A stretch of 64,000 nucleotides of DNA from Fimbriimonadaceae bacterium (GTDB lineage Bacteria; Armatimonadota; UBA10988). This document shows, piece after piece, positions 10,711 to 64,000 of this stretch; position 1 is the first letter of the stretch; every line of letters starts with the position of its first letter. The notes under the pieces were generated by a model, which was not told the origin of the DNA, did not search any database, and saw nothing but the letters and a program-made list of their open reading frames with translations. Made by a program: the position numbers and the translations under genes. The stretch is from NCBI GenBank assembly GCA_020850355.1, contig JADZEX010000010.1, positions 62,001 to 126,000 of the forward strand. The letters are read 5' to 3'.

Positions 10711-10802
10711 TGCCGGCGGGCGCGGTCAACGCTGCGGCCGGCGCGACAGGAATCGGCCGCGCGCTGGCCAAGCGTCCTGGCGGCGGACGAGGGAGAGCCC
10801 AG

Positions 10803-12236
10803 ATGGCACGCATCGCGATGATCGGCGCCGGCAGCCAGGTCTTCTGCAAGACCTTGTCGATGGACATCTTCGCCACTCCGGCCCTGGCCGGCAGCGAGAT
10901 TCGGTTGATGAGCCGGACCCGGCCGAAGCTCGACCGGATGGCAGCCTACCTGCAGCGGGTCGTCGCCGACAACGGGCTCGACTTTCAGATCAGCAGCACG
11001 CTGGACCGGCGCGAGGCGATCCGCGACGCCGACTATGTGATCTGTATGGTCCAGGTCGGCGGCCTCGACGCCTACAGCCTGGACTACCAGATCCCGCTGA
11101 AGTACGGCGTCGACCAGTGCATTGGCGACAGCCTCGGCCCCGGCGGGGTGTTCCGCGGACTGCGCACGATCCCCGTGCTGGGTGACCTGGTGCGCGACAT
11201 GGAGGAGCTCTGCCCGCAGGCCCTGCTGCTCAACTACACCAACCCGATGGCGGCCTGCTGCCTGGCCCTCGGGCGCTGCTCGCAGCAGGTGCAGTTCATC
11301 GGCCTCTGCCACGGCGTGCAGACCACCCTCGATCTGATCGCCGGGTACCTCACGCGGCCGAAGGAGCAGATCGACTTTCTGTGCGCCGGCATCAACCACA
11401 TGGGCTGGTTCCTGGAGCTGCACGACAAGCTCACCGGCGAGGACCTCTACCCGCAACTGCGGGCCTGCTTCGAACGCCCCGAGTACTACGCCAACGAGAA
11501 GGTCCGCGGCGAGGTGCTGCGGCAGTTCGGCTACTTCATGACCGAATCGACCGGCCACCTGTCGGAGTACATCCCCTGGTTCCGCAGCAGCCAGCGCGCC
11601 CTCGACCTGTACTGCGACGAACCCAGCTTCGGCGGCGAGAGTGGCGCCTACTTCAAATACTGTCACCTGCTCGACACCAAGTACCGCGATGTCGATTACC
11701 TCGCCAGCGAGGACTCGACGGTCGGCCGGCGCTCGGTGGAGTACTGCTCCTATATCCTCGAGGCGCACCAGACCGACCGCGTCTTCCGCCTCAACGGCAA
11801 CGTCCGCAACGACGGCTACCTCACCAACCTGCCCGCCGGCTGCTGCGTCGAGGTGCCGGTCTACGTCGATCGCCTCGGCCTGCATCCGGCCCGGGTCGGC
11901 GCCCTGCCACCGCAACTGGCGGCGCTCAACCAGAGCAACGTCACGGTGCAGACCCTGGCCGTCGAGGCCGGCCTGACCGGCGACCCGGAGCACATCGTCC
12001 ACGCCATCGCGCTGGACCCGCTGACCAGCGCCTGCTGCACCCTGGCCGAGATCCGGGCGATGTGCGCCGAGCTGCTGGAGGCCCAACGCGAGTGGCTGCC
12101 GCAGTTCGCCGGCCAGACGCTGAAGGCCACCCCGGTGATCAGCATCCCACCCGACACGCAGCGGGTCGACGTGCCGCTCGACCCGGCCCTGGCGATTGTC
12201 CACCGCTTCGGCGAGCTGGCTTCGCGACAGGTCTGA
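10803..12236 (+). CDS. GH4 family alpha-galactosidase/glycosidase
   Basis: A 477-residue NAD+ and metal-dependent glycosidase of family GH4, which acts by oxidation and elimination rather than ordinary hydrolysis. The N-terminus has the Rossmann nucleotide loop IAMIGAGSQVF. Downstream are LLNYTNPMAACC and GLCHGVQTT (the Cys-His region that binds Mn2+), and INHMGWFLEL. The layout resembles the MelA (alpha-galactosidase) branch more than 6-phospho-glycosidases, but specificity cannot be fixed by eye. The ATG at 10803 follows GAGGGAGAG. There is no signal peptide, so it acts on oligosaccharides already in the cytoplasm. Confidence 0.9.
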   Translation: MARIAMIGAGSQVFCKTLSMDIFATPALAGSEIRLMSRTRPKLDRMAAYLQRVVADNGLDFQISSTLDRREAIRDADYVICMVQVGGLDAYSLDYQIPLKYGVDQCIGDSLGPGGVFRGLRTIPVLGDLVRDMEELCPQALLLNYTNPMAACCLALGRCSQQVQFIGLCHGVQTTLDLIAGYLTRPKEQIDFLCAGINHMGWFLELHDKLTGEDLYPQLRACFERPEYYANEKVRGEVLRQFGYFMTESTGHLSEYIPWFRSSQRALDLYCDEPSFGGESGAYFKYCHLLDTKYRDVDYLASEDSTVGRRSVEYCSYILEAHQTDRVFRLNGNVRNDGYLTNLPAGCCVEVPVYVDRLGLHPARVGALPPQLAALNQSNVTVQTLAVEAGLTGDPEHIVHAIALDPLTSACCTLAEIRAMCAELLEAQREWLPQFAGQTLKATPVISIPPDTQRVDVPLDPALAIVHRFGELASRQV

Positions 12237-12289: not shown

Positions 12290-12315
12290 GGAACTTCTCG
12301 TCTGGCGTAACGTTA
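12290..12315 (+). promoter_or_regulatory. candidate ECF-sigma promoter for the LolA-like/thioredoxin genes
   Basis: GGAAC at 12290-12294 and CGTTA at 12311-12315 are separated by 16 nt, which matches the general group of ECF sigma promoters (GGAAC, 16-17 nt, CGTT). Transcription would begin near 12322, leaving a leader of about 38 nt before the ATG at 12360. The extended -35 GGAACTTCT recurs at 41600. This is a pattern match only. Confidence 0.5.
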
Positions 12316-12359
12316 GAGTCCGGCGACTCCTGACGTGGGACGTCGGGACGGGGAGTGGG

Positions 12360-13712
12360 ATGGCAAAGACAGACGAGTCTGTCGAGGTGGGGCGCCGCTG
12401 CGTGGCGACTGGCCGCTGGCGACGAGGGGCGGTGATCGGGCTGCCGTTGCTGGTGCTCCTTGGCTTGGCCGGGTTCGCCACGCTGTGGCGAGCGCAGGAC
12501 AGCCCGCAGCGGTTGCTGCGGCGGCTGGAGGCACCGCCTGGGATGGTCGCCGGCCGGATCCGCGGAGTGGTCCGCCTCGAAGTGGTCGCCAGCGGCAGCA
12601 CGACCAGCGTCCAGCAGAACTACTCGGCCTCGTGGGCCGCGCCGAACCTCTTGCGGCTGGAGTGCGGGGAGGGCGCGCAGCGTGGCCTGATGGTCTGTGA
12701 TGGGCGCCATGTCTGGCTGCAGGTCGGCAGCGACCAGGTGGCGCGTTGTCCGGCGCCAGCCGACTGGACGGCCTGGGCGACCTCGCGCGAAGTGCAGCAG
12801 ACCCTCCGGGAACGGAGTACGACCCCGGCGATGCGCGAACTGCTCGCGGCCCATCTGACCTGCCGCGAGGTCGTCGCAGGCATCGATCCGCAGAGCGAGT
12901 GGATGCGGCAGTTGCCGCCCGTGCCGGGGCGGCCCGTCACCGCGACCTTGCCGTTCGGTCCGCGGGTCACCTGGTGGATCGGTCGGCAACAACCCCATCG
13001 GATGGCCTGCGAGATCCCACCGGCACAGCTCCAGGAGCTGCTGCGGAAGTATGTCGGGGCCGACGCCGAGATGCCAAAGGCAATGGCGTTGGGCTTCCGG
13101 GTGCTGCTGACCTTCACGGAGTGCCGCCTGTTGACGCAGCGGCCGGCCGACCTGCAGTTCCAGTACCACTTGGCAGCCCGCCAGCGCGTCGTTGAGGCTG
13201 CCGGTCCGCTGGACCTGGCGAAGGCACTGCTGGATGCGCCGGACACGGGGCGGGCTGTCCGGGACGAGCCCTCGAAGCTGCTCGGGAAACCGCTCCCGGA
13301 GTTCGAGGCGCGCACCCTCGAGGGCCGCCGCGTCAGCAGCCGCAGCCTGCGCGGTCGCCCGCTGGTGCTCGATCTCTGGGCCACCTGGTGCCCGCCCTGC
13401 CGGGCTGCGCTACCGCGGCTGGAGCGGCTCCACCAACAACACCGTTCCGCCGGGCTACAGGTCGTCGCCCTGTCGGTCGACTCCCGCCCCGTGGAGGTGC
13501 AGGCGTTCCTGAAGCGCCAGCCGCAGGACCTGACGGTCTGGCACTTGTCGCCGGCCAGCCAAGACCACGACCGCCTGGCGCAGGCCCTGCATCTTGCGGG
13601 AATCCCGCGGACCCTCTATGTCGACCGCCGCGGCATCATCCGCGAGGACGCCACGGGGCTGCATTCGGAAGCTGCAATGCGCGCGGCGCTGCGCAAGATC
13701 GGCATCCGTTAG
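12360..13712 (+). CDS. membrane-anchored LolA-like plus TlpA thioredoxin protein
   Basis: A 450-residue protein and the first of three tandem paralogues. One transmembrane segment near the N-terminus (about 27-43, IGLPLLVLLGLAGFATLWRA) probably anchors it with the rest outside the membrane. Residues about 50-280 resemble the LolA/DUF2092-type beta sheet (NYSASWAAPNLLRLE, LMVCDGRHVWL, FRVLLTFTECRL). Residues about 310-450 are a TlpA/ResA-like thioredoxin domain with the intact redox motif W343-C344-P-P-C347 and the cis-proline segment GIPRTLYVDRRG. It probably reduces or exchanges disulfides in the envelope. The ATG at 12360 follows GGGGAGTGGG, 45 bp after an ECF-like -10 element. The next gene starts 26 bp after its stop. 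Confidence 0.85.
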   Translation: MAKTDESVEVGRRCVATGRWRRGAVIGLPLLVLLGLAGFATLWRAQDSPQRLLRRLEAPPGMVAGRIRGVVRLEVVASGSTTSVQQNYSASWAAPNLLRLECGEGAQRGLMVCDGRHVWLQVGSDQVARCPAPADWTAWATSREVQQTLRERSTTPAMRELLAAHLTCREVVAGIDPQSEWMRQLPPVPGRPVTATLPFGPRVTWWIGRQQPHRMACEIPPAQLQELLRKYVGADAEMPKAMALGFRVLLTFTECRLLTQRPADLQFQYHLAARQRVVEAAGPLDLAKALLDAPDTGRAVRDEPSKLLGKPLPEFEARTLEGRRVSSRSLRGRPLVLDLWATWCPPCRAALPRLERLHQQHRSAGLQVVALSVDSRPVEVQAFLKRQPQDLTVWHLSPASQDHDRLAQALHLAGIPRTLYVDRRGIIREDATGLHSEAAMRAALRKIGIR

Positions 13713-13738
13713 GGGGCTCAGCGCAGGGAGGACCGACG

Positions 13739-14668
13739 ATGAGTGAGCAAACTGCACCGACCACCTACCAACGAGGCACGCACCGCGATGCCGGGCGGCT
13801 GATCGGGTGCCTGCTGCGGCTCTTCGTGCTGCTGGCCATTGGCGGCGTGGTGGCCGCCTGTGGCCTCTTCTTCTATCTCCGAGCACACCCCGAGAAGCTG
13901 CTGGAGAAGCTGCTGCCGACCACCCCGCTGGCCCAGGCGCAGGTGACCGCCAGCTACACCATCGACATGCAGATGGGCACCTTCAACACCAAGTCGACCC
14001 ACGACATCAGCCTGGCCTACGCCAGGCCGAACCTGCTGCATGCCAAGTTCGGCTCGGGCATGAGCCAGGTCGTGGTCAACAGCGACGGCCAGCAGTTGCA
14101 CCTGGATCTCCTGAACGGCCAAATGGTGGTGCGCTGCCCGGCGCCGCCAGACTTCGCCAAGGTGGCCGACGACCCGGCCTGGCGCAAGCTGGGGGCGAAG
14201 CTGCCGGCCCCGGCCGCGGTGGGCGGCAAGGGCAACTGGCGCGACGCGATCAGCAAGATCGAGTTCGGCATCGACCGCGGCAGTGAGTGGATGAAGACCC
14301 TGGCCGCGCCGCTCGGCAGCAAGGCCCTGACCGTCACGTCGAAAGACGGCGGGGTGGTCACGGTCTGGATCGACCCCCGCCGCGCGAAGCTGACCCAGGC
14401 CGCGATGGACATCACGCCCGAACGGCTGCAGGCCCAGATGGCCAAAGCGCAGCCGGGCGGCAAGCTGCCGGGTGGTGGCGCCGCGCCCAACCTCGGCCAG
14501 ATGCACACCCGCCACCTGCTCAAGGTCAGCCAGTTCGACCTGCAGCAGCGGCCGGACCCGAGCAAGTTCAAGTACCGCCCGCCGGCCGGGGCACGAGTTA
14601 CGCAGGCGAAGTCGTTGGCGGAGCTGCCGACGGCGTTGATGGGGATGGCCCGCGGCGGGATGCGGTGA
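13739..14668 (+). CDS. membrane-anchored LolA-like protein without thioredoxin domain
   Basis: A 309-residue middle paralogue of the tandem trio. It has an N-terminal transmembrane anchor (about 24-42, CLLRLFVLLAIGGVVAACGLFF) and a LolA/DUF2092-like domain. The shared signatures are SLAYARPNLLHAKFG, DGQQLHLDLLNGQMVVRCPAPPDF, and GSEWMKTL, which matches QSEWMRQL in the first copy. It stops where the thioredoxin domain would begin, after a short tail that includes QFDLQQRPDPSKFKY. The ATG at 13739 follows GCAGGGAGG, 26 bp after the preceding stop, so it is almost certainly in the same operon. It may bind a lipophilic ligand or act as a partner for its thioredoxin-bearing sisters. No function is established. 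Confidence 0.82.
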   Translation: MSEQTAPTTYQRGTHRDAGRLIGCLLRLFVLLAIGGVVAACGLFFYLRAHPEKLLEKLLPTTPLAQAQVTASYTIDMQMGTFNTKSTHDISLAYARPNLLHAKFGSGMSQVVVNSDGQQLHLDLLNGQMVVRCPAPPDFAKVADDPAWRKLGAKLPAPAAVGGKGNWRDAISKIEFGIDRGSEWMKTLAAPLGSKALTVTSKDGGVVTVWIDPRRAKLTQAAMDITPERLQAQMAKAQPGGKLPGGGAAPNLGQMHTRHLLKVSQFDLQQRPDPSKFKYRPPAGARVTQAKSLAELPTALMGMARGGMR

Positions 14669-14727
14669 GGACCGCGGCGAGTGGCGCGGCCCGCCAGGCG
14701 CCGTGGCACCCGCAAAGGGGGAACAAG

Positions 14728-16158
14728 ATGGTCACGCGACGTCAGCGGGTTGGCGCCGTGCTTACGGCGGTGGCGTTGTTGCTGGTGGCCGGCGCCCAAT
14801 GGTCGGCGGCCAACCAACTGCGGGCCCACCCCGACCGGCGGCTGACACCCCTCCTGGAGACCCTCGCCGGGCCGGCCTGGGAGTTGGCGGGCCAGGCTGA
14901 GGTGACTGGGATGGTTGACGGTCAATCCCTGTCGTGGGCAGGGCCGCTGAGCTTGGTCTGGGCCGCGCCCAACCGGCTCCGTCTGGTGGTGGGCGAGGGT
15001 CTCGAGCAACGGGCGCTGTGCAGCGATGGCAAGGCGCTGACCATCGTCCTCGGCCAGGGGGAGCGGACCTGGCGGATGCCGGCGCCGCCGGACCTGACCA
15101 GGGTGCTGGGCGACCCGGCGGTGCGGCGCCAGGTGCGCCGCCAGGGCTACTGGAGGCTGGTGGAGTACTTCCAGAGCAGCCCAGAACGCCCGCTGGTGGC
15201 CGACTGGGTAGACGGTCCAGACCCTGCCAGCGCGTGGGTGCGGGAACTGCCGCCGGTGCGCGGTAGCCGCGCCGTGACGATGGCGCTGAGCCGCAATCTG
15301 CGGCTCACCTGCTGGGCTTCCCGCGACCGCCTTCGACGGGTTGCCTTCGAGGCTCCGCCGGCGACCATGCAGGCCATCGGCAGCTTCCTGCTGGACCTGC
15401 CACGCCCGCCGGTGCCGGACCTTTTGCCTGGCCAGGTGGCGCCAGCCCTGCCCCGACTTGATCTGCGGGCGCAATGGGTGCTGTCCACCTGCGCGCCGAC
15501 GAGTGATCTCACCGGCCGGTTTGAGGCCCCAACGCGCGACGGCCCGGCGCCGACCGAGGTGGCGTCCTTGGCACACTGGCTGGCGGCCCACCTGCGCCTT
15601 CCCCTCCAGCCGCGCCTGGGATCGGCCAGCCTGGTTGGCCAGCGCCTGCCGGCCTTCACCGCGCGCACGCTCGCGGGGCGCGCCGTCTCCAGCAGATCCT
15701 TGCTAGGTCGCCCGGCGGTCCTGGAGTTCGGCGCCACCTGGTGTCCACCCAGCCAGGACTCGATCGAGCGGCTGGCCATGCTGCAGGCTGCCTGGTCTCG
15801 CCAGGGCGTCCGGTTCGTGGCCGTCTTCACCAATGCCACGACGCGACCGGTGCAGGCGTTCCTACAGAACAGTGGAGTCACGCTGGAAAGCTGGCACTTG
15901 GACTGGCGTACCGCCGAGGCGAAGCGGGTCGAGCGGGTCTACCGCATGGTGGGTATCCCACGCACGCTCTACGTCGACCGCCGCGGCATGGTCGTCGACG
16001 ACAGCATTGGTCTGCAGCCAACCGCGGTCATCGAGGAATACCTCAGCGACCTGGTCACGCCCGCCGCCGCGGCGGCCGCGCTCGCTATGCCCGCTGGAGC
16101 AGCAGCAGCCAGTCCTCCTCCGGCCCCGGCGGCGGCGGCACCGTCTGGCCCGCGCTGA
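14728..16158 (+). CDS. LolA-like/thioredoxin paralogue with degenerate CPPS motif
   Basis: A 476-residue third copy of the trio. It has a signal anchor (RVGAVLTAVALLLVAGAQWSA), a LolA-like domain with LSLVWAAPNRLRLVVGEG and MPAPPDLTRVL, and a C-terminal TlpA-like domain (FTARTLAGRAVSSRSLLGRPAVLEFGATW). Its active site reads W338-C339-P-P-S342, so the resolving cysteine is a serine (AGC, one base from TGC). The cis-Pro strand GIPRTLYVDRRG is kept. A CPPS thioredoxin can form mixed disulfides but cannot complete the normal cycle, so it may trap, isomerise or bind substrates. The C-terminus ends in an Ala/Pro tail. Its last 74 bp overlap the convergent DUF4038 gene. Confidence 0.83.
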   Translation: MVTRRQRVGAVLTAVALLLVAGAQWSAANQLRAHPDRRLTPLLETLAGPAWELAGQAEVTGMVDGQSLSWAGPLSLVWAAPNRLRLVVGEGLEQRALCSDGKALTIVLGQGERTWRMPAPPDLTRVLGDPAVRRQVRRQGYWRLVEYFQSSPERPLVADWVDGPDPASAWVRELPPVRGSRAVTMALSRNLRLTCWASRDRLRRVAFEAPPATMQAIGSFLLDLPRPPVPDLLPGQVAPALPRLDLRAQWVLSTCAPTSDLTGRFEAPTRDGPAPTEVASLAHWLAAHLRLPLQPRLGSASLVGQRLPAFTARTLAGRAVSSRSLLGRPAVLEFGATWCPPSQDSIERLAMLQAAWSRQGVRFVAVFTNATTRPVQAFLQNSGVTLESWHLDWRTAEAKRVERVYRMVGIPRTLYVDRRGMVVDDSIGLQPTAVIEEYLSDLVTPAAAAAALAMPAGAAAASPPPAPAAAAPSGPR

Positions 16159-17662
16159 CGCGGCCGAGCGGCGTTTCGGCGAAGGTCACCGGATCGAGGG
16201 CGGTGGCCTGCCAGGCGGTGTCCAGGTTGTGCAAGGTGACGGGTCGGCGGCTGGGCGCGTAGATCAGCCGCAGGTCGGCGCGGCCGGCGCAGTAGGCGCG
16301 GTCGGCGGCGTCCAGCGCGGCGCCGGTGAGGGTGGCCCACGCGGGGTGCGGCGCCAGGTCCGGCCAGCCACAGCGCAGCAACAGGGCTTTGGCCCAGGCG
16401 AGCTGCTGCGAGCCGGGCAGGTGCAGGGCGTCCTGCCAGGGGATCGTGCCGTAGTTGCCGCCATGCGGGCTGGCGCCGTGGGGCTGGTCGGCGCGGTTGC
16501 ACTGCCAAAGGCCGTTGGCGCCGTAGGTATGACCGGCGGCACCCGACAGGAGGCTGGCCCAGGCGACCATCCGCTGTGGCCCGGCGCGGAACTGGTCGAG
16601 CAGCATCTCGTAGGCCACTTCGCTGTTCAAGACCGGCATCCGCGGCTCGGCGGCGTAAGACCAATCGTGGGTCTCCAGCGACGGCAGCAGCACCTCGCGG
16701 TGGCCGTGACCGGTCTGCAGCATGTCGAAGTCGAGCAGCTCCGGATCGTCGATGGCGCCCCGCGCGCTGAGGCGGCCGAGGCCGGTGGGGTGCACCGACA
16801 GCGGGTGGCTGAAGGGGTCGGTCTGGCGGACGTAGCGTGCCACGGCGGTCCAGCCGGTGACCGCTGCGCGGTCGTCGTAGGGGAAGCCCTCGGCCAGGTA
16901 CCAGGGCAGGTTAACCTCGCCGCCGACGCACCAGAAGACGGGCCAGGCGGCGTAGCGCGCCAAGAGGTAGCGCCAGTGCTGTTGCAGCCGGGCAACACCC
17001 ATCCAACCCAGGAAATAGCCCCAGGCGCCGACCAGACAGGGCACCAGGCCGTGCTCGACGAGATCCGCGAAGCGGCGGTCGACGGCGTCGTAGTAGGCCG
17101 GCCGGATCCGCGCGAAGTTGGGCTCCCAGGCCTGTCCCGCCTCGTTGGCACCGCGCTCGTCGAAGGCGGGCATGTCAGGGTACAGGCCAGCCACGATCTG
17201 GATCACCGTGAAGCCTTTGGCGACCCGGTCGGCGACCATCTGCTTCCAATCGTCGGGCCAGGCGAGGCGCTGGCAGAAGGCCATCCACCAGGTGTCGCCG
17301 AGCCACAAGAAGGGCGTGCCATCGGCGTGCTCGAAGCGCCGCCGGTCGGCTGTGACCTGTGGTGCGCCGTGCCGATAGAGCGGGTGGTCGCCACGGTAGG
17401 GCAGCACTTGCAGCCGCCGCTGCTGGCCGTCCAAGGCCGCGATGGCGGCGCACTCTGTGACCAGCCGATGCTCGCCGACCAGCGGTGAGCTGTAGCGCAC
17501 TCGCCAGACATCGCCCCCAGCCCAGAAGGCCGGCACTCGCCGGGTGACCCCAGCGGGGTCGGTCACCAGGGCGTCGAGCTGCACATCGTGGAACGGATCG
17601 GCGGCCCCCGGGTCGGCCTGGAAGGCGAACTCGGCGACGTGGTTCTGGGAGACGGTCAGCAT
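16085..17662 (-). CDS. DUF5060/DUF4038 glycosidase (GH140-like)
   Basis: A 525-residue protein with the architecture of DUF4038 (GH140, apiosidase-like) enzymes. An N-terminal DUF5060 beta domain (about 1-85, with WAGGDVWRVRYSSPLVGEHRLV) precedes a TIM barrel starting TPFLWLGDTWWMAFCQRL and continuing GFTVIQIVAGLYP. Acidic candidates for catalysis are Glu in FWCVGGEVNLPWY and Glu in MPVLNSEVAYE, at the strand ends expected for the family. A short C-terminal beta segment follows. No signal peptide is evident, so it may act inside the cell or leave by another route. Its 3' end overlaps the thioredoxin-like gene by 74 bp on the opposite strand. The exact substrate is unknown. Confidence 0.85.
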   Translation of the reverse strand: MLTVSQNHVAEFAFQADPGAADPFHDVQLDALVTDPAGVTRRVPAFWAGGDVWRVRYSSPLVGEHRLVTECAAIAALDGQQRRLQVLPYRGDHPLYRHGAPQVTADRRRFEHADGTPFLWLGDTWWMAFCQRLAWPDDWKQMVADRVAKGFTVIQIVAGLYPDMPAFDERGANEAGQAWEPNFARIRPAYYDAVDRRFADLVEHGLVPCLVGAWGYFLGWMGVARLQQHWRYLLARYAAWPVFWCVGGEVNLPWYLAEGFPYDDRAAVTGWTAVARYVRQTDPFSHPLSVHPTGLGRLSARGAIDDPELLDFDMLQTGHGHREVLLPSLETHDWSYAAEPRMPVLNSEVAYEMLLDQFRAGPQRMVAWASLLSGAAGHTYGANGLWQCNRADQPHGASPHGGNYGTIPWQDALHLPGSQQLAWAKALLLRCGWPDLAPHPAWATLTGAALDAADRAYCAGRADLRLIYAPSRRPVTLHNLDTAWQATALDPVTFAETPLGRVSAGQTVPPPPGPEEDWLLLLQRA

Positions 17663-17868
17663 CGGTCAGGCTCCAGCGCTGGGATACGCGGTCGGACCCG
17701 CCTGGCCTCTTGCCATTTGGGGGCTGACCGGGCGACGCCAAAGGTAACCCCGAGGTGTCCCGCGCTGCCGGAATCGCGGCTGGGCGGGTCTGGCGCGAGG
17801 GGCCGATCCATGATACACCGCAGGTAGCGGCTGACCAGGGCGACGAGCCACGACACGCGGGGCGCGCG

Positions 17869-20800
17869 ATGCAGATCGAACCGACGGCGGCGGACCTGCA
17901 GGGGGTGTTGCGGGCGGCCGACGAGTTGATCGGCCTGGTCGACCTCGACGACGTCTGTCGCCGGGCGGTCGAACTGGCGCGTGAACGGCTGGGGCTGGAA
18001 CGCGTCGGGCTGTTCCTGTTGGACGGCCAGCCGCCTGTCTGGCGCGGCACCTATGGCACCGACCTGGCCGGCCAGACGACCGACGAACGAGCGACCACCG
18101 TGGTGCCGGGGCATGGCGTGTGGCACCACTTCCTGCAGGAGGCGGTGGCCGGCGGCCCGCGCTGGCTGAAGCAGCCGGACTTCCCGTTACGCGCCCACGG
18201 CGAGGTGGTCGGCAGCGGCGAGCATGCGGTCACGGCGGTGATGGCCGGTCCCGAGCTGCTGGCGGTGGTGTTCAACGACAACGCCCTCAGCCGTCAGCCG
18301 CTGCGCGACGACGTCCAGGAGGTCCTGGCGGCCTACGGCTCGTTGCTCGGCCACATCATTCAGCGCAAGCGGGTGACCTGGCAACTGCGGGCGTCAGAGG
18401 AGCTCTACCGTGACCTGGTCGAGTCGGCCCAGGAGCTGATCTGGCGGATCGACCACGCGGGGCGGTTCACCTTCCTCAACCAGGCCTGGGAGACCGTGCT
18501 GGGCCGGCCGCTTGACACTCTGCTGGGGCGCCGCTTCGGCGACTTTCAGGACGACGCGCAGGTCGCGGCGGATCTACCGATGGCCACCCGCTTCAAGGCC
18601 GGGCAACGCATCGTGGGTTACCGGACCGAGTTCCGGACCGCTGCGGGCGAGGTGGTCCACCTGACCATCAACGGCACACCCCAGTTGGAACAGACCGGCC
18701 GCTTCGTGGGTGGGCAAGGCACGGCCGTCGATACCACCGCCTGGCGCCAGCAGGAGCAGGCCCTGCAGGTGCAGCAAGACAACCTCCGCTCGCTCTTCAA
18801 CGCCACCCAGGAGAGCGTTTTCTTGATGGACCCGGCAGGGCTCATTCTGGAGGCCAATCCGACCTTTGCGGCGCGGCTGGGGCGGTCGGTTGGGGACTGT
18901 GTGGGGCGGCTGGTGTGGGACCTCATTCCGCCGGAGGTGGCGGCTGCGCGCCGGGCTCATGTGGCGCAGGTGCTGCGGACGGGGCGTCCGCTGGCCTTTG
19001 ACGACACGCGCGACGGGCTGTGGTTGCGGCATGTGCTGTACCCGGTCCTGGACCGCCAGGGACGGGTCGCGCGGCTGGCTTCCTATGCGACCGATCTGAC
19101 TGCCCGGCGGCAGTCTGAGGAGGCCCTGCGGCGCAGCGAGGAGCGCTACCATTCGTTCGTGGAGCAGAGCCACGAGGCGATCTACTGCACCGAGTTCGAC
19201 CAGCCGATCGACACCAGCCTCCCGGTCGAACAGCAGATCGACCTGATCTATGAGCGGGCCTACATGGGCGAATGCAACGCGGCGATGGCGGCGATGTACG
19301 GCCTGCCGTCGCCGGCTGAGTTCGCGGGCCGGCGGCTGGTGGACGTCCACGGCGGCAGCAGCAACCCCACCAACCGGGCGATGTTCGCCAGGTTCATCGC
19401 CAGCGGGTACCGCGCGATTCAGAATGAGACCGCCGAGGTGCTCCCCGACGGCCAGCGGAGGTGGTTCGTCAGCAACGACATCGGCATCGTCGAGGACGGC
19501 CACCTGGTGCGCATTTGGGGCACCTCGCTGGACGTCACCGAGCGGCGGCAGGCCGAGGAGGCGCTCCGGGAGTCGCGCGAGCTCTTGCGGGCGGTGCTCG
19601 ACGCCATCCCGGTGCGGGTGTTCTGGAAAGACCGCGAGTCGCGGTACCTCGGCTGCAACCTCACCTTTGCGCGGGACGCCGGCTGTGCGTCACCGGACGA
19701 GCTGCTGGGTCGGGATGACTATGAGCTGGACTGGCGCTCTCAGGCCGACCTCTATCGGGCCGATGACCAGGCGGTGATCCACAGCGGCGTGGGGCGCATG
19801 TCCTACGAGGAGCCGCAGAGCAGGCCAAACGGCGAGCAACTCCAGTTGCTGACCAGCAAGCTGCCGCTGCGCGACACCACCGGCGCGGTGGTGGGTGTGC
19901 TGGGCACCTACCTCGACATCACGCCGCGGCAGCGGGCCGAGGAGGCCCTGCGCGCCAGCGAGTCCCGCTTCCGGTCGATCGCCGACTACACCTTCGAATG
20001 GGAGAACTGGGTCGGGCCCGACGGGGAGCTGCGTTGGGTCAGCCCGGCGGTCGAGCAGCTTACCGGCTATGCGGCAGCCGAGTGCCACGAGCTGCCGCAC
20101 TTCCCGCTGGCGCTGGTGGTCGCCGAGGACCGCGCGGGCGTCGCCGCGGAGCTGCAACGAGCGCTGGCGGGCGGCGAGCAGGCCGAGTACCCCTTCAGTC
20201 TGCAGCGCCGCGACGGCGTGATCCGCCGGATGGCGCTGGCCTACCGGCCGATCACTGAAGGCGGCCAACAGCAGCTTGGCTACCGCAGTTGCATCCGTGA
20301 CATCACCGCCCGCAGCCGCGCCGAAGACTTGGTGGCGACGCGGCTGCAACTGGCCGAGGCCGCCGGCAGCGCCACGGTGGACGAGGTGATGCAGTTGGCG
20401 ATGGACGCCGCCGAGCGGCTGACCGACAGTTCGATCGGTTTCTTCCACGTCGTCGACCCGGACCAGGAGCACCTCACGTTGACTGCCTGGTCCACCAACA
20501 CGGTGGCGCACATGTGTACCGCCGAGGGCAAGGGCAGCCACTACCCCATCTCCATGGCCGGCGTCTGGGTGGACTGCTTCCACACCAAGGCGACGGTGAT
20601 CCACAACGACCTCGCGAGCCTGGCGCATCGCAAAGGCATGCCCAATGGCCATGCGCCGGTGATCCGTGAGATGGTCGTCCCGGTGATCCGCGACGGCCTG
20701 GTCCGGGCCATCCTGGGGGTCGGCAACAAGGCTACCGACTACACCGACGACGACGCCCGAATGTTGGAGGCGCTGACCGGGCTGGTGATCGATCTGGTGG

Positions 20801-22686
20801 AACGCAAACAGGCGGAGCAGGCGCTCCGCGAGAGCGAGGCGCGGCACCGCTCGGTGGTCGAGAACTCGCCCGACGGCGTCGTGCGCTTCGATCGCGAGGG
20901 CCGGCACCTCTACGCCAGCCCGGCGATGGAGCGCCTCACGGGGCTCCCGGCGGACGCCCTGGCTGGCCGCACCGTCGGCGAGCTCGGCCTGCCCGCGGAC
21001 TTCTGCGAGACCCTCGAGACCGGCCTGCGGCGGGCACAGCGTACTGCGGAGTCGGTGGAGTGCGAAGCGACCTTGAAGTCGGGCCAGGGCGAGCAGCACA
21101 TCAATCTGCGACTGATCCCCGAGCGCGGTCAAGACGGGTCGGTCGGCAGTGTGCTGTTGCTGGTCCGTGACATCACCGAGCACCGCCGCACCGAGCGTGA
21201 CTACCAGCGGTTGTTCACCTCGCTGGACGCGGCCTTTGCCGTCCAAGAGCTGCTCTACGACGCGGCCGGGCGCCCGCAGGACTGGCGCTACCAGGCGCTC
21301 AACCCGGCCTTCGAGCGACTGCTCGGGCGGTCCAGCGGCAGCCTGGTGGGCCACTGCGGCAGCATGGTGCTGCCGGGGCTGGCGGCGGAGTGGGTGGCGC
21401 ACTTCGGCGAGGTGGTGGCGAGCGGCGAGACGACGCAGTTCGAGTGCCACAGCGCCGACCTCGGACGCCACCTGGCGGTGACCGCCTACGCGCTGGGCGG
21501 CCAGCAGGTTGCGACGCTGATCGAGGACGTCACCCAGCGGCTGCTGTTGGAAGAGCAGGTCCGGCACTCGCAACGTTTGGAGTCGATCGGCCGCCTGGCC
21601 GGCGGCGTGGCCCACGACTTCAACAACCTGCTGACCCCAATCCTCGGCTATGCCCAGTTCCTGGCTGCCGACCTGCGGCCTGACGACCCGCGCGCGGCGG
21701 ACGTCGCCGAGATCCAGCAGGCCGGGTTGCGGGCGCGCGACCTGACGCGGCAGTTGCTGGCGTTCGGCCGCAAGCAGGTGCTGAGCCTCACCGAGGTCGA
21801 CCTCCGCGAGGTGGTCGGCAGTTTCCAGCGGCTGCTCCGCCGGACACTGCGCGAGGACATCGAGCTGGTCGTGGACCTCGACCAGCAGCCCTGCGTGGTG
21901 CTCGCCGACGCGGGCCAGTTGGAGAAGGTGCTGATGAACCTGGCGGTCAACGCGCAGGATGCGATGCCGGACGGCGGGCGCCTGACCATCCGGGTGCGGG
22001 CAGCCGGCGGGGCGGTGCGGCGGGCGGAGCTGCTGGTCAGCGACACCGGCAGCGGGATCGAGGCCGGGATCCTGGCCCACATCTTCGAGCCCTTCTACAC
22101 CACCAAGCGCGCTGGCCAGGGGACGGGCCTCGGTCTGGCCACGGTGCATGGCATCGTCGGCCAGCATGGCGGGCGGGTCGAAGTCGACTCGGCGCCAGGG
22201 CAGGGCACCACCTTCCGGGTGACGCTGCCGCTGGCGGTGGCGCCGGAGCGGGCGCCCCGCGTGGTGCGGCCGGTCTCGACCGCCAGCGGCTGCGAGGGCT
22301 CCGAGACGGTGGCGGTGGTCGACGACGACGCCGGCATCCTGGAGCTGGCGCGGCGGGCGCTGCGCGCGCAAGGCTACGACGTGGTCGCCGCCCAAGGCGG
22401 CCCGGAGCTGTTGCAGCAACTCCGCCAGCAGCCGCGGACGCTCGATCTGCTGGTCACCGACGTGGTGATGCCAGCGCTCAACGGGCGGCAGCTCTACGAG
22501 CAACTCAGCGCGCAGCAAGCCGGTCTGCGAGTGCTCTACATCACCGGCTACGACGACGAGGTGCTCGGCACCCGGGGGGTGCTGGACGACGGCATTCAGT
22601 TGCTGCTGAAGCCGTTCACCCCGCAGGTGCTCTGCCAGAAGGTGCGCCAGGTCCTCGATCAGCCGATCTCGGCGCCGCACCCTTGA
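17869..22686 (+). CDS. multi-PAS/GAF hybrid sensor histidine kinase with receiver
   Basis: A 1,605-residue cytoplasmic-looking sensor with no membrane segment. By position it has an N-terminal GAF domain (about 1-165), PAS domains starting near residues 178, 306, 427, 573 and 701, a GAF_2 domain (about 821-978), and two more PAS domains near 994 and 1113. A HisKA domain follows with phosphoacceptor H1249 (GGVAHDFNNLL), then HATPase_c (NLAVNAQDAMPDGG, DTGSGI, GTGLGLATVHG), and a C-terminal receiver with D1531 in LVTDVVMP. It probably integrates several small-molecule or redox signals. No output regulator gene is adjacent. The start at 17869 is the best ATG before the GAF domain; its ribosome site is weak, so an earlier start is possible. 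Confidence 0.9.
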   Translation: MQIEPTAADLQGVLRAADELIGLVDLDDVCRRAVELARERLGLERVGLFLLDGQPPVWRGTYGTDLAGQTTDERATTVVPGHGVWHHFLQEAVAGGPRWLKQPDFPLRAHGEVVGSGEHAVTAVMAGPELLAVVFNDNALSRQPLRDDVQEVLAAYGSLLGHIIQRKRVTWQLRASEELYRDLVESAQELIWRIDHAGRFTFLNQAWETVLGRPLDTLLGRRFGDFQDDAQVAADLPMATRFKAGQRIVGYRTEFRTAAGEVVHLTINGTPQLEQTGRFVGGQGTAVDTTAWRQQEQALQVQQDNLRSLFNATQESVFLMDPAGLILEANPTFAARLGRSVGDCVGRLVWDLIPPEVAAARRAHVAQVLRTGRPLAFDDTRDGLWLRHVLYPVLDRQGRVARLASYATDLTARRQSEEALRRSEERYHSFVEQSHEAIYCTEFDQPIDTSLPVEQQIDLIYERAYMGECNAAMAAMYGLPSPAEFAGRRLVDVHGGSSNPTNRAMFARFIASGYRAIQNETAEVLPDGQRRWFVSNDIGIVEDGHLVRIWGTSLDVTERRQAEEALRESRELLRAVLDAIPVRVFWKDRESRYLGCNLTFARDAGCASPDELLGRDDYELDWRSQADLYRADDQAVIHSGVGRMSYEEPQSRPNGEQLQLLTSKLPLRDTTGAVVGVLGTYLDITPRQRAEEALRASESRFRSIADYTFEWENWVGPDGELRWVSPAVEQLTGYAAAECHELPHFPLALVVAEDRAGVAAELQRALAGGEQAEYPFSLQRRDGVIRRMALAYRPITEGGQQQLGYRSCIRDITARSRAEDLVATRLQLAEAAGSATVDEVMQLAMDAAERLTDSSIGFFHVVDPDQEHLTLTAWSTNTVAHMCTAEGKGSHYPISMAGVWVDCFHTKATVIHNDLASLAHRKGMPNGHAPVIREMVVPVIRDGLVRAILGVGNKATDYTDDDARMLEALTGLVIDLVERKQAEQALRESEARHRSVVENSPDGVVRFDREGRHLYASPAMERLTGLPADALAGRTVGELGLPADFCETLETGLRRAQRTAESVECEATLKSGQGEQHINLRLIPERGQDGSVGSVLLLVRDITEHRRTERDYQRLFTSLDAAFAVQELLYDAAGRPQDWRYQALNPAFERLLGRSSGSLVGHCGSMVLPGLAAEWVAHFGEVVASGETTQFECHSADLGRHLAVTAYALGGQQVATLIEDVTQRLLLEEQVRHSQRLESIGRLAGGVAHDFNNLLTPILGYAQFLAADLRPDDPRAADVAEIQQAGLRARDLTRQLLAFGRKQVLSLTEVDLREVVGSFQRLLRRTLREDIELVVDLDQQPCVVLADAGQLEKVLMNLAVNAQDAMPDGGRLTIRVRAAGGAVRRAELLVSDTGSGIEAGILAHIFEPFYTTKRAGQGTGLGLATVHGIVGQHGGRVEVDSAPGQGTTFRVTLPLAVAPERAPRVVRPVSTASGCEGSETVAVVDDDAGILELARRALRAQGYDVVAAQGGPELLQQLRQQPRTLDLLVTDVVMPALNGRQLYEQLSAQQAGLRVLYITGYDDEVLGTRGVLDDGIQLLLKPFTPQVLCQKVRQVLDQPISAPHP

Positions 22687-63493: not shown

Positions 63494-64000
63494 TCAGGTC
63501 GCCGCGGCGACCCGGGTCAGCAGCTCTTCGCCCTCGGCCGGGCTGGCAGCGCCGGTCAGGATGAACAGCCCTTCCGGCCGCAAGATGCGGCAGGCGGCCT
63601 CGACTTCGTCGAACGGCAGGCTGATCACCAGGCCTTTGCCGGCCGCCTGGATTCGCTGGTAGAGCTCCAGCCAGGCGAGGCCCCCGGCCTGCCCGGTGCC
63701 GGGGGTCCACTGGATGGCATGCACCCGCGGCAGACTCAGCAGGCGGTCGAGATGCTGCAGGGCGCCGGGGCCGTCGAGGTGGTAGACGGCGCTGCCGGCC
63801 CAGGCGGTCAGCTCCTCCAGCTCCGGGACCACGTAGAACTCGAACAGCTCCGGTGAGAGCATGCACGACAGATCGCTCTGTAGCGTCACGTTACGCCGGC
63901 GGGGCGACCAGATGCTGAGCCAGGAACTGCTGCCCTCCTGCGGCGCCAGCAGCTCCTCCAGCCGTACCGCGATCTGCAGCCAGGCATCCAGCACCTGCCG
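63494..64000 (-). CDS. UroD-like protein, truncated by the window edge
   Basis: C-terminal part (at least 169 residues) of a protein of the uroporphyrinogen decarboxylase/methyltransferase barrel family. Signs are SDLSCMLSPELFEFYVVPELEELTAWAGSAVYHLDGPGALQHLDRLLSLPRVHAIQWTPGTG, the typical late barrel strands of UroD-like proteins in glycan-degrading bacteria. These family members are often methyltransferase-type enzymes and not heme-pathway UroD. The start lies beyond position 64000. Its stop codon is 2 bp from that of the ceramidase-like gene. Confidence 0.75.
   Translation of the reverse strand, partial: RQVLDAWLQIAVRLEELLAPQEGSSSWLSIWSPRRRNVTLQSDLSCMLSPELFEFYVVPELEELTAWAGSAVYHLDGPGALQHLDRLLSLPRVHAIQWTPGTGQAGGLAWLELYQRIQAAGKGLVISLPFDEVEAACRILRPEGLFILTGAASPAEGEELLTRVAAAT

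Follow-up and report, generated by a model that had tools for sequence, protein, structure and literature searches.

A tandem triplet of LolA-like and LolA-like/thioredoxin genes in a Fimbriimonadaceae genome, best read as diverged local duplicates

The window, a stretch of 64,000 nucleotides from the draft genome of a Fimbriimonadaceae bacterium (6.67 Mb, 95% complete), contains three consecutive genes for predicted membrane-anchored proteins, which are called A, B and C in the following. The features of the locus are:

10782-12236, forward strand: glycosyl hydrolase family 4 (GH4) gene, upstream neighbour, outside the unit
12360-13712, forward strand: gene A, 450 amino acids; membrane helix at about 24-42, LolA/DUF2092-like domain to about 300, TlpA/ResA-type thioredoxin domain at about 305-447
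about 13388-13399 (first codon 13389), forward strand: codons of the active site C344-P-P-C347 of gene A, from the translation
13739-14668, forward strand: gene B, 309 amino acids; membrane helix at 15-49 and a LolA-fold domain only, without thioredoxin
14728-16158, forward strand: gene C, 476 amino acids; membrane helix at 4-33, LolA-like domain, TlpA/ResA-type thioredoxin domain at about 303-442
15742-15753, forward strand: codons of the active site C339-P-P-S342 of gene C (tgt cca ccc agc), in which serine replaces the resolving cysteine
16057-16158, forward strand: alanine/proline-rich tail of gene C, the last 34 codons or so, present neither in A nor in any homologue
16085-17662, reverse strand: DUF5060 and apiosidase-like gene, downstream and convergent, outside the unit

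An earlier note on this DNA had described three paralogous, membrane-anchored proteins in a row, and this description was borne out. A and C could be aligned over their full length (461 columns, E 5e-48) with an identity of about 33% (34% by another count), while the alignments of B with A (E 3e-17) and with C (E 3e-18) cover the N-terminal domain. Every protein has one hydrophobic segment, which is N-terminal, and hydrophobicity over the full length revealed none further along; the simplest topology would therefore be a signal anchor with the remainder of the protein in the periplasm. The active-site numbering given in the note (CPPC at C344/C347 in A, no site in B, CPPS at C339/S342 in C) was exact, and no CxxC motif occurs anywhere in the B protein. 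The quoted motifs APNLLRLE, MPAPPD and CPAPPD are present in variants, namely APNLLRLE and CPAPAD in A, RPNLLHAK and CPAPPD in B, and APNRLRLV and MPAPPD in C. Of the span proposed, 12290-16158, the end was correct and the beginning was not, because position 12290 falls in the leader of gene A, which has its first usable start codon at 12360.

All three genes lie on the forward strand, separated by only 26 nt (A/B) and 59 nt (B/C), and a ribosome-binding-like sequence precedes each start. Judged by these gaps, A and C are probably co-transcribed. The GC content at third codon positions is 0.86 in A, 0.92 in B and 0.83 in C, the lowest of the three, at a window mean of 0.90. A mobile or phage origin was rejected, as the composition matches the rest of the window and the chromosomal neighbours are ordinary: the GH4 glycosidase, a UPF0182 protein and the apiosidase-like gene, with no sigma or anti-sigma gene adjoining the three genes. 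An antisense frame of 524 codons (14020-15591, reverse strand) runs over B and C; it was rejected as a real gene, since the homology sits in the forward frames and nothing points to a gene on this strand, and it is a shadow frame of the kind typical of GC-rich DNA. It was also rejected that gene C is a frameshift or annotation artefact, since its homology spans the full length. About 1.6 kb downstream of C, the translation reveals the start of a gene for a multi-PAS/GAF hybrid histidine kinase of up to 1643 amino acids with a C-terminal receiver domain (17755-22686, forward strand).

The assignment of the N-terminal domain to LolA or DUF2092, made in the earlier note, was upheld by the predicted fold, and in Pfam it was marginal. 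B reached 17.4 bits with DUF2092 (PF09865), below the gathering cut-off of 21.2, and neither A nor C had a match to this family. A relative of the same family without thioredoxin domain (genome G002) barely cleared the cut-off with 21.8 bits, so that the domain can be regarded as a divergent neighbour of DUF2092, which has been placed in the LolA fold (PMC4520260). The LolA family model TIGR00547 scored 14.4 bits on B and did not reach its cut-off of 112, and canonical LolA (PF03548) had no match in the whole source genome or in three relatives. The predicted model of B (pLDDT 80.8) was matched by Foldseek to LolA structures with an E value of 6.6e-9 and a probability of 1.00 at a TM-score of only about 0.5, and also to RseB (2p4b, E 1.1e-3). 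A profile of the family also meets LolA in its last motif (E 0.002). On the basis of the model, the N-terminal domains of A, B and C would belong to the LolA/RseB structural superfamily, which is characterized by an unclosed beta-barrel with a helical lid. Elsewhere in the source genome (locus L001, 40-2244; G000:C5, match 63645-63917) an ECF-type sigma factor gene (40-651), a likely anti-sigma factor gene (648-1133) and a DUF2092 gene (1090-2244) follow each other with overlapping ends, and they look like a sigma/RseA/RseB-like operon.

With 68.7 bits in A and 38.6 bits in C, both thioredoxin domains clearly exceeded the Pfam cut-off of 26 for the AhpC-TSA family, and the domain of C was also recognised in a search of solved structures. 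The best Foldseek match of the predicted model of C (pLDDT 79.7; pTM 0.55, with an unreliable relative placement of the two domains) was ResA (E 6.6e-11). A reached none of the NCBIfam equivalog or subfamily cut-offs for ResA (74.2 of 170 bits), TlpA (67.4 of 230) and DsbE (50.6 of 123). The dithiol WCxxC active site is present in A and not in C, which has lost the resolving cysteine and keeps the nucleophilic Cys339, the cis-proline loop (IPRTL) and the thioredoxin core. A CxxS at the active-site position together with a retained cis-proline loop, as seen in the alignment, makes C a CXXS protein, a described class of thioredoxin-fold sites (PMC2757866). Five active homologues share 40 thioredoxin positions without variation, and of these 31 are kept in A and 29 in C, compared to 23 and 15 in two distant homologues from the genomes G262 and G269. 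A further cysteine, in the N-terminal domain (C255 in A and C, C281 in the relative from G001), was considered as an internal partner of the thioredoxin domain; this idea was dropped, because more distant fusions are devoid of it. It is also not present in B or in the relatives from G002 and G003.

The earlier note had named a conserved gene order and a conserved exchange of cysteine for serine in relatives as support for a real system, and neither was found. The triplet is absent from 291 genomes of the phylum Armatimonadota, among them three of the same family and none of the same genus, the three family members including two that are only 72% and 80% complete. Each of the latter three has one gene with the N-terminal domain. 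The single gene of G001 encodes a CPPC fusion of 474 amino acids that is 36% identical to A, and G002 has a gene for a protein of 334 amino acids without thioredoxin domain. In G003 a gene for a thioredoxin-free protein of 303 amino acids (L066 6875-7783, reverse strand) follows about 22 nt after a separate, partly masked CPPC thioredoxin gene (L066 7806-8354, reverse strand), and this pair is a split form of the LolA-like/thioredoxin fusion. A search of the 291 genomes with a profile of the N-terminal domain retrieved intact CxxC fusions, besides that of G001, from G285, G286 and G254, the last with two genes. These two lie next to each other (L100 514-2754 and 2767-4317, reverse strand), one of them with two N-terminal domains ahead of the CPPC domain, and are an independent tandem expansion of the LolA-like/TlpA family. 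The G285 fusion (L102 3423-5159, reverse strand) carries an additional copper amine oxidase N-terminal domain (PF07833, 62.6 bits) at its N-terminus. Members without thioredoxin domain are B and its counterparts in G002, G003, G274, G289 and G290. In two distant fusions both thioredoxin cysteines have been lost, so that pseudo-thioredoxins are recurrent:

L104 5346-6764, forward strand: fusion of G262 with HPNA at the active site (WHPNAS)
L103 4514-6076, forward strand: fusion of G269 without cysteine in the active site

In five genomes a gene for a small membrane-anchored NTF2/DUF2950-like protein is located directly upstream of the LolA-like(-thioredoxin) gene:

L032 10236-10941, reverse strand: NTF2/DUF2950-like gene
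L103 3990-4607, forward strand: NTF2/DUF2950-like gene
L105 7084-7599 and 7665-8222, reverse strand: NTF2/DUF2950-like genes
L101 3880-4560, forward strand: NTF2/DUF2950-like gene
L106 1446-2183, forward strand: NTF2/DUF2950-like gene

By its position this protein appears to be a conserved partner of the family, and the source genome has no such gene.

The CPPS site itself was also searched for. With AGY serine codons, the only match to A-x-W-C-P-P-S inside a thioredoxin domain in the 291 genomes was C itself, and with TCN codons no thioredoxin was found among the 30 loci listed. Nor did a close orthologue of C emerge when 84,980 species genomes were scanned. As far as tested, the exchange seems to be private to the source genome. 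Two distant fusions have lost both cysteines and a second CPPS was not found, indicating that a crippled thioredoxin domain is a recurrent outcome and not a conserved cysteine-to-serine design.

Phylogenetic trees were calculated for both domains. In the tree of the N-terminal domain A, B and C formed a clade with moderate support (84/87) and in the presence of long branches, A and C were sisters (86/86), and the genes of G001 and G003 formed a pair beside them (95/93). The terminal branches were 0.85 for B, 1.17 for A and 1.99 for C, the longest of the three. In the thioredoxin tree A and C grouped together (98/96), with a branch of 1.33 for C versus 0.54 for A, and the two cysteine-less domains had the longest branches. 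Because A, B and C cluster, A and C are sisters, and each relative of the same family has a single gene with this N-terminal domain, the duplications probably occurred within the source lineage. The duplication that led to A and C is judged to be old, because their identity is only about 34%. The tail of C (16057-16158) has GC contents of 0.85/0.94/0.65 at the three codon positions, unlike coding sequence, and overlaps the 3'-end of the convergent apiosidase-like gene; therefore, C has probably lost its original stop codon and is read through into the antisense strand of its neighbour.

Taken together, the sequences are best read as diverged local gene duplicates rather than as a conserved three-part machine. 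The preferred explanation, to which a probability of roughly 0.6 is assigned, is that a gene for a membrane-anchored periplasmic LolA-like(-TlpA) protein was duplicated in tandem in this lineage, and that A is the working copy, B a binding-only copy and C a copy with a thioredoxin domain of little catalytic activity. The divergent DUF2092/LolA-like domain would bind a hydrophobic ligand, a lipid or a lipoprotein, as suggested by the LolA fold. Two genes for DsbD/CcdA-type reductases are present in the source genome, and such a membrane reductase could pass electrons to the CPPC site of A, which would then reduce periplasmic disulfides close to whatever the LolA-like pocket holds. A functional link between the two parts is supported by the split pair of G003 and by the many fusions. 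B would bind its ligand without redox chemistry. C could neither complete a dithiol cycle nor resolve mixed disulfides, and thus the most likely role of its thioredoxin domain is in structure or protein docking, with little catalysis and under relaxed constraint, for which the longest branch in the N-domain tree, the read-through tail and the lowered GC content at third codon positions argue. The moderate support for the A+B+C clade, the long branches and the LolA TM-score of only about 0.5 speak against the duplicate and ligand-binder reading, and the thioredoxin core of C, conserved nearly as well as that of A, is better kept than one would expect if the domain were idle.

The earlier note had named local duplication and decay as the meaning of an absent triplet. 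The trees agree with the duplication, and simple decay is not a fully correct reading either. That C is merely on its way to a pseudogene without any role seems unlikely. The loss of the resolving cysteine, the probable loss of the stop codon, the lowest GC content at third codon positions, the longest branch and the lack of a detected orthologue would all fit, yet the frame of 476 codons and the strong ribosome site are intact, the motifs of the N-terminal domain are kept along with the 29 thioredoxin positions (31 in A), and the frame has survived an old duplication. Intact frame, ribosome site and thioredoxin core indicate that C is no plain pseudogene and that the protein is likely still made. 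As C keeps these positions and the cysteines were lost in at least two other family members, the family seems to tolerate, and may retain, thioredoxin domains that are half-active or devoid of thiols.

It is rather improbable that the three proteins form a specialised redox relay, in which C captures a client through a mixed disulfide between Cys339 and the thiol of the client, A frees the client by reduction, and B contributes ligand binding without chemistry. The layout of one active, one thioredoxin-free and one half-active copy, from which specialised partners had been proposed, is indeed present, and with the nucleophile, cis-proline loop and core retained in C only the resolving cysteine is gone. 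Trapping by C would be chemically feasible, as partners are captured in the same way by the engineered C110S variants of TlpA (PDB 4txo, 4txv), and A and C are neighbours in a probable transcription unit. However, neither a CPPS orthologue nor the triplet is conserved among the 291 genomes, which weakens the idea of specialised partners, and C is the fastest evolving copy. The degenerate relatives in G262 and G269 lost both cysteines, which argues against disulfide trapping as the property under selection in this family.

Envelope-stress sensing resembling that of RseB, with the LolA-like domains detecting misplaced lipids or lipoproteins and acting on a signalling partner and the thioredoxin domain as an accessory, is doubtful at best. 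RseB is found among the Foldseek matches of B, the sole DUF2092 gene above the Pfam cut-off in the source genome is the third gene of the ECF sigma/anti-sigma operon, and the PAS-rich histidine kinase gene is close by; however, no sigma or anti-sigma gene is among the neighbours of A, B and C, and the neighbour common to the relatives encodes the small NTF2-like protein instead of a sigma factor. Least likely of all is that the three proteins handle lipids or lipoproteins under redox control. C would then be a naturally monothiol trap of TlpA type, fused to a domain that binds lipids or lipoproteins, and would hold a thiol-bearing envelope client in a mixed disulfide until this is resolved by A, while B would shuttle the ligand.

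The duplicate reading leaves the triplet as a modest addition to what is known, with an active, a half-active and a thioredoxin-free copy in one cell. The recurrent loss of thioredoxin cysteines (CPPS, HPNA, cysteine-free), the members without thioredoxin domain and the split pair of G003 suggest that the thioredoxin domain either does more than disulfide chemistry or is readily dispensable. Functional studies of LolA-like/thioredoxin fusions or of DUF2092 were not found in the literature searched, which yielded only the fold assignment.

Several known systems can be compared with the three genes. The N-terminal domain shares its predicted fold with LolA (PDB 1iwl, 2w7q), RseB (2p4b) and VioE, and with LolA a similar last motif, F-x-Y-x-P-P-x-G. 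The window proteins differ from LolA in being membrane-anchored, in having no Pfam LolA match and not reaching the family cut-off, and in a TM-score of about 0.5. With the reductases ResA, TlpA and CcmG (PDB 1st9, 4nmu, 1jfu) A and C have in common the fold, the position of WCxxC, the cis-proline loop and the membrane anchoring. In contrast to these, the thioredoxin domain ends a LolA-like domain in the window proteins, the scores of A fall well short of the equivalog cut-offs for ResA and TlpA, and C is without the second cysteine. C resembles CXXS thioredoxin-fold proteins, i.e., monothiol glutaredoxins, CXXS-type protein disulfide isomerases and the engineered TlpA C110S, in that the N-terminal cysteine and the cis-proline loop are kept and the C-terminal cysteine is exchanged for serine; unlike them it is of TlpA type, and its monothiol form appears not to be conserved. 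The closest architecture is found in DUF2092 and TlpA/AhpC-TSA fusions of about 400-480 amino acids from 'Candidatus Tritonobacter lacicola' (L112; DUF2092 68.5 bits plus redoxin) and Armatimonadota (L113), which also have a LolA-like domain followed by a TlpA-type domain with CPPC. The window proteins miss the DUF2092 cut-off and differ in the long N-terminal membrane anchor, the tandem triplet and the CPPS of C. The combination recurs elsewhere in Armatimonadota and in one other lineage, and is not new, as L112 and L113 have it outside the subfamily of the window proteins. LolA-like/TlpA fusions and CXXS sites had thus each been known before, and new here is the tandem triplet with a CPPS copy.
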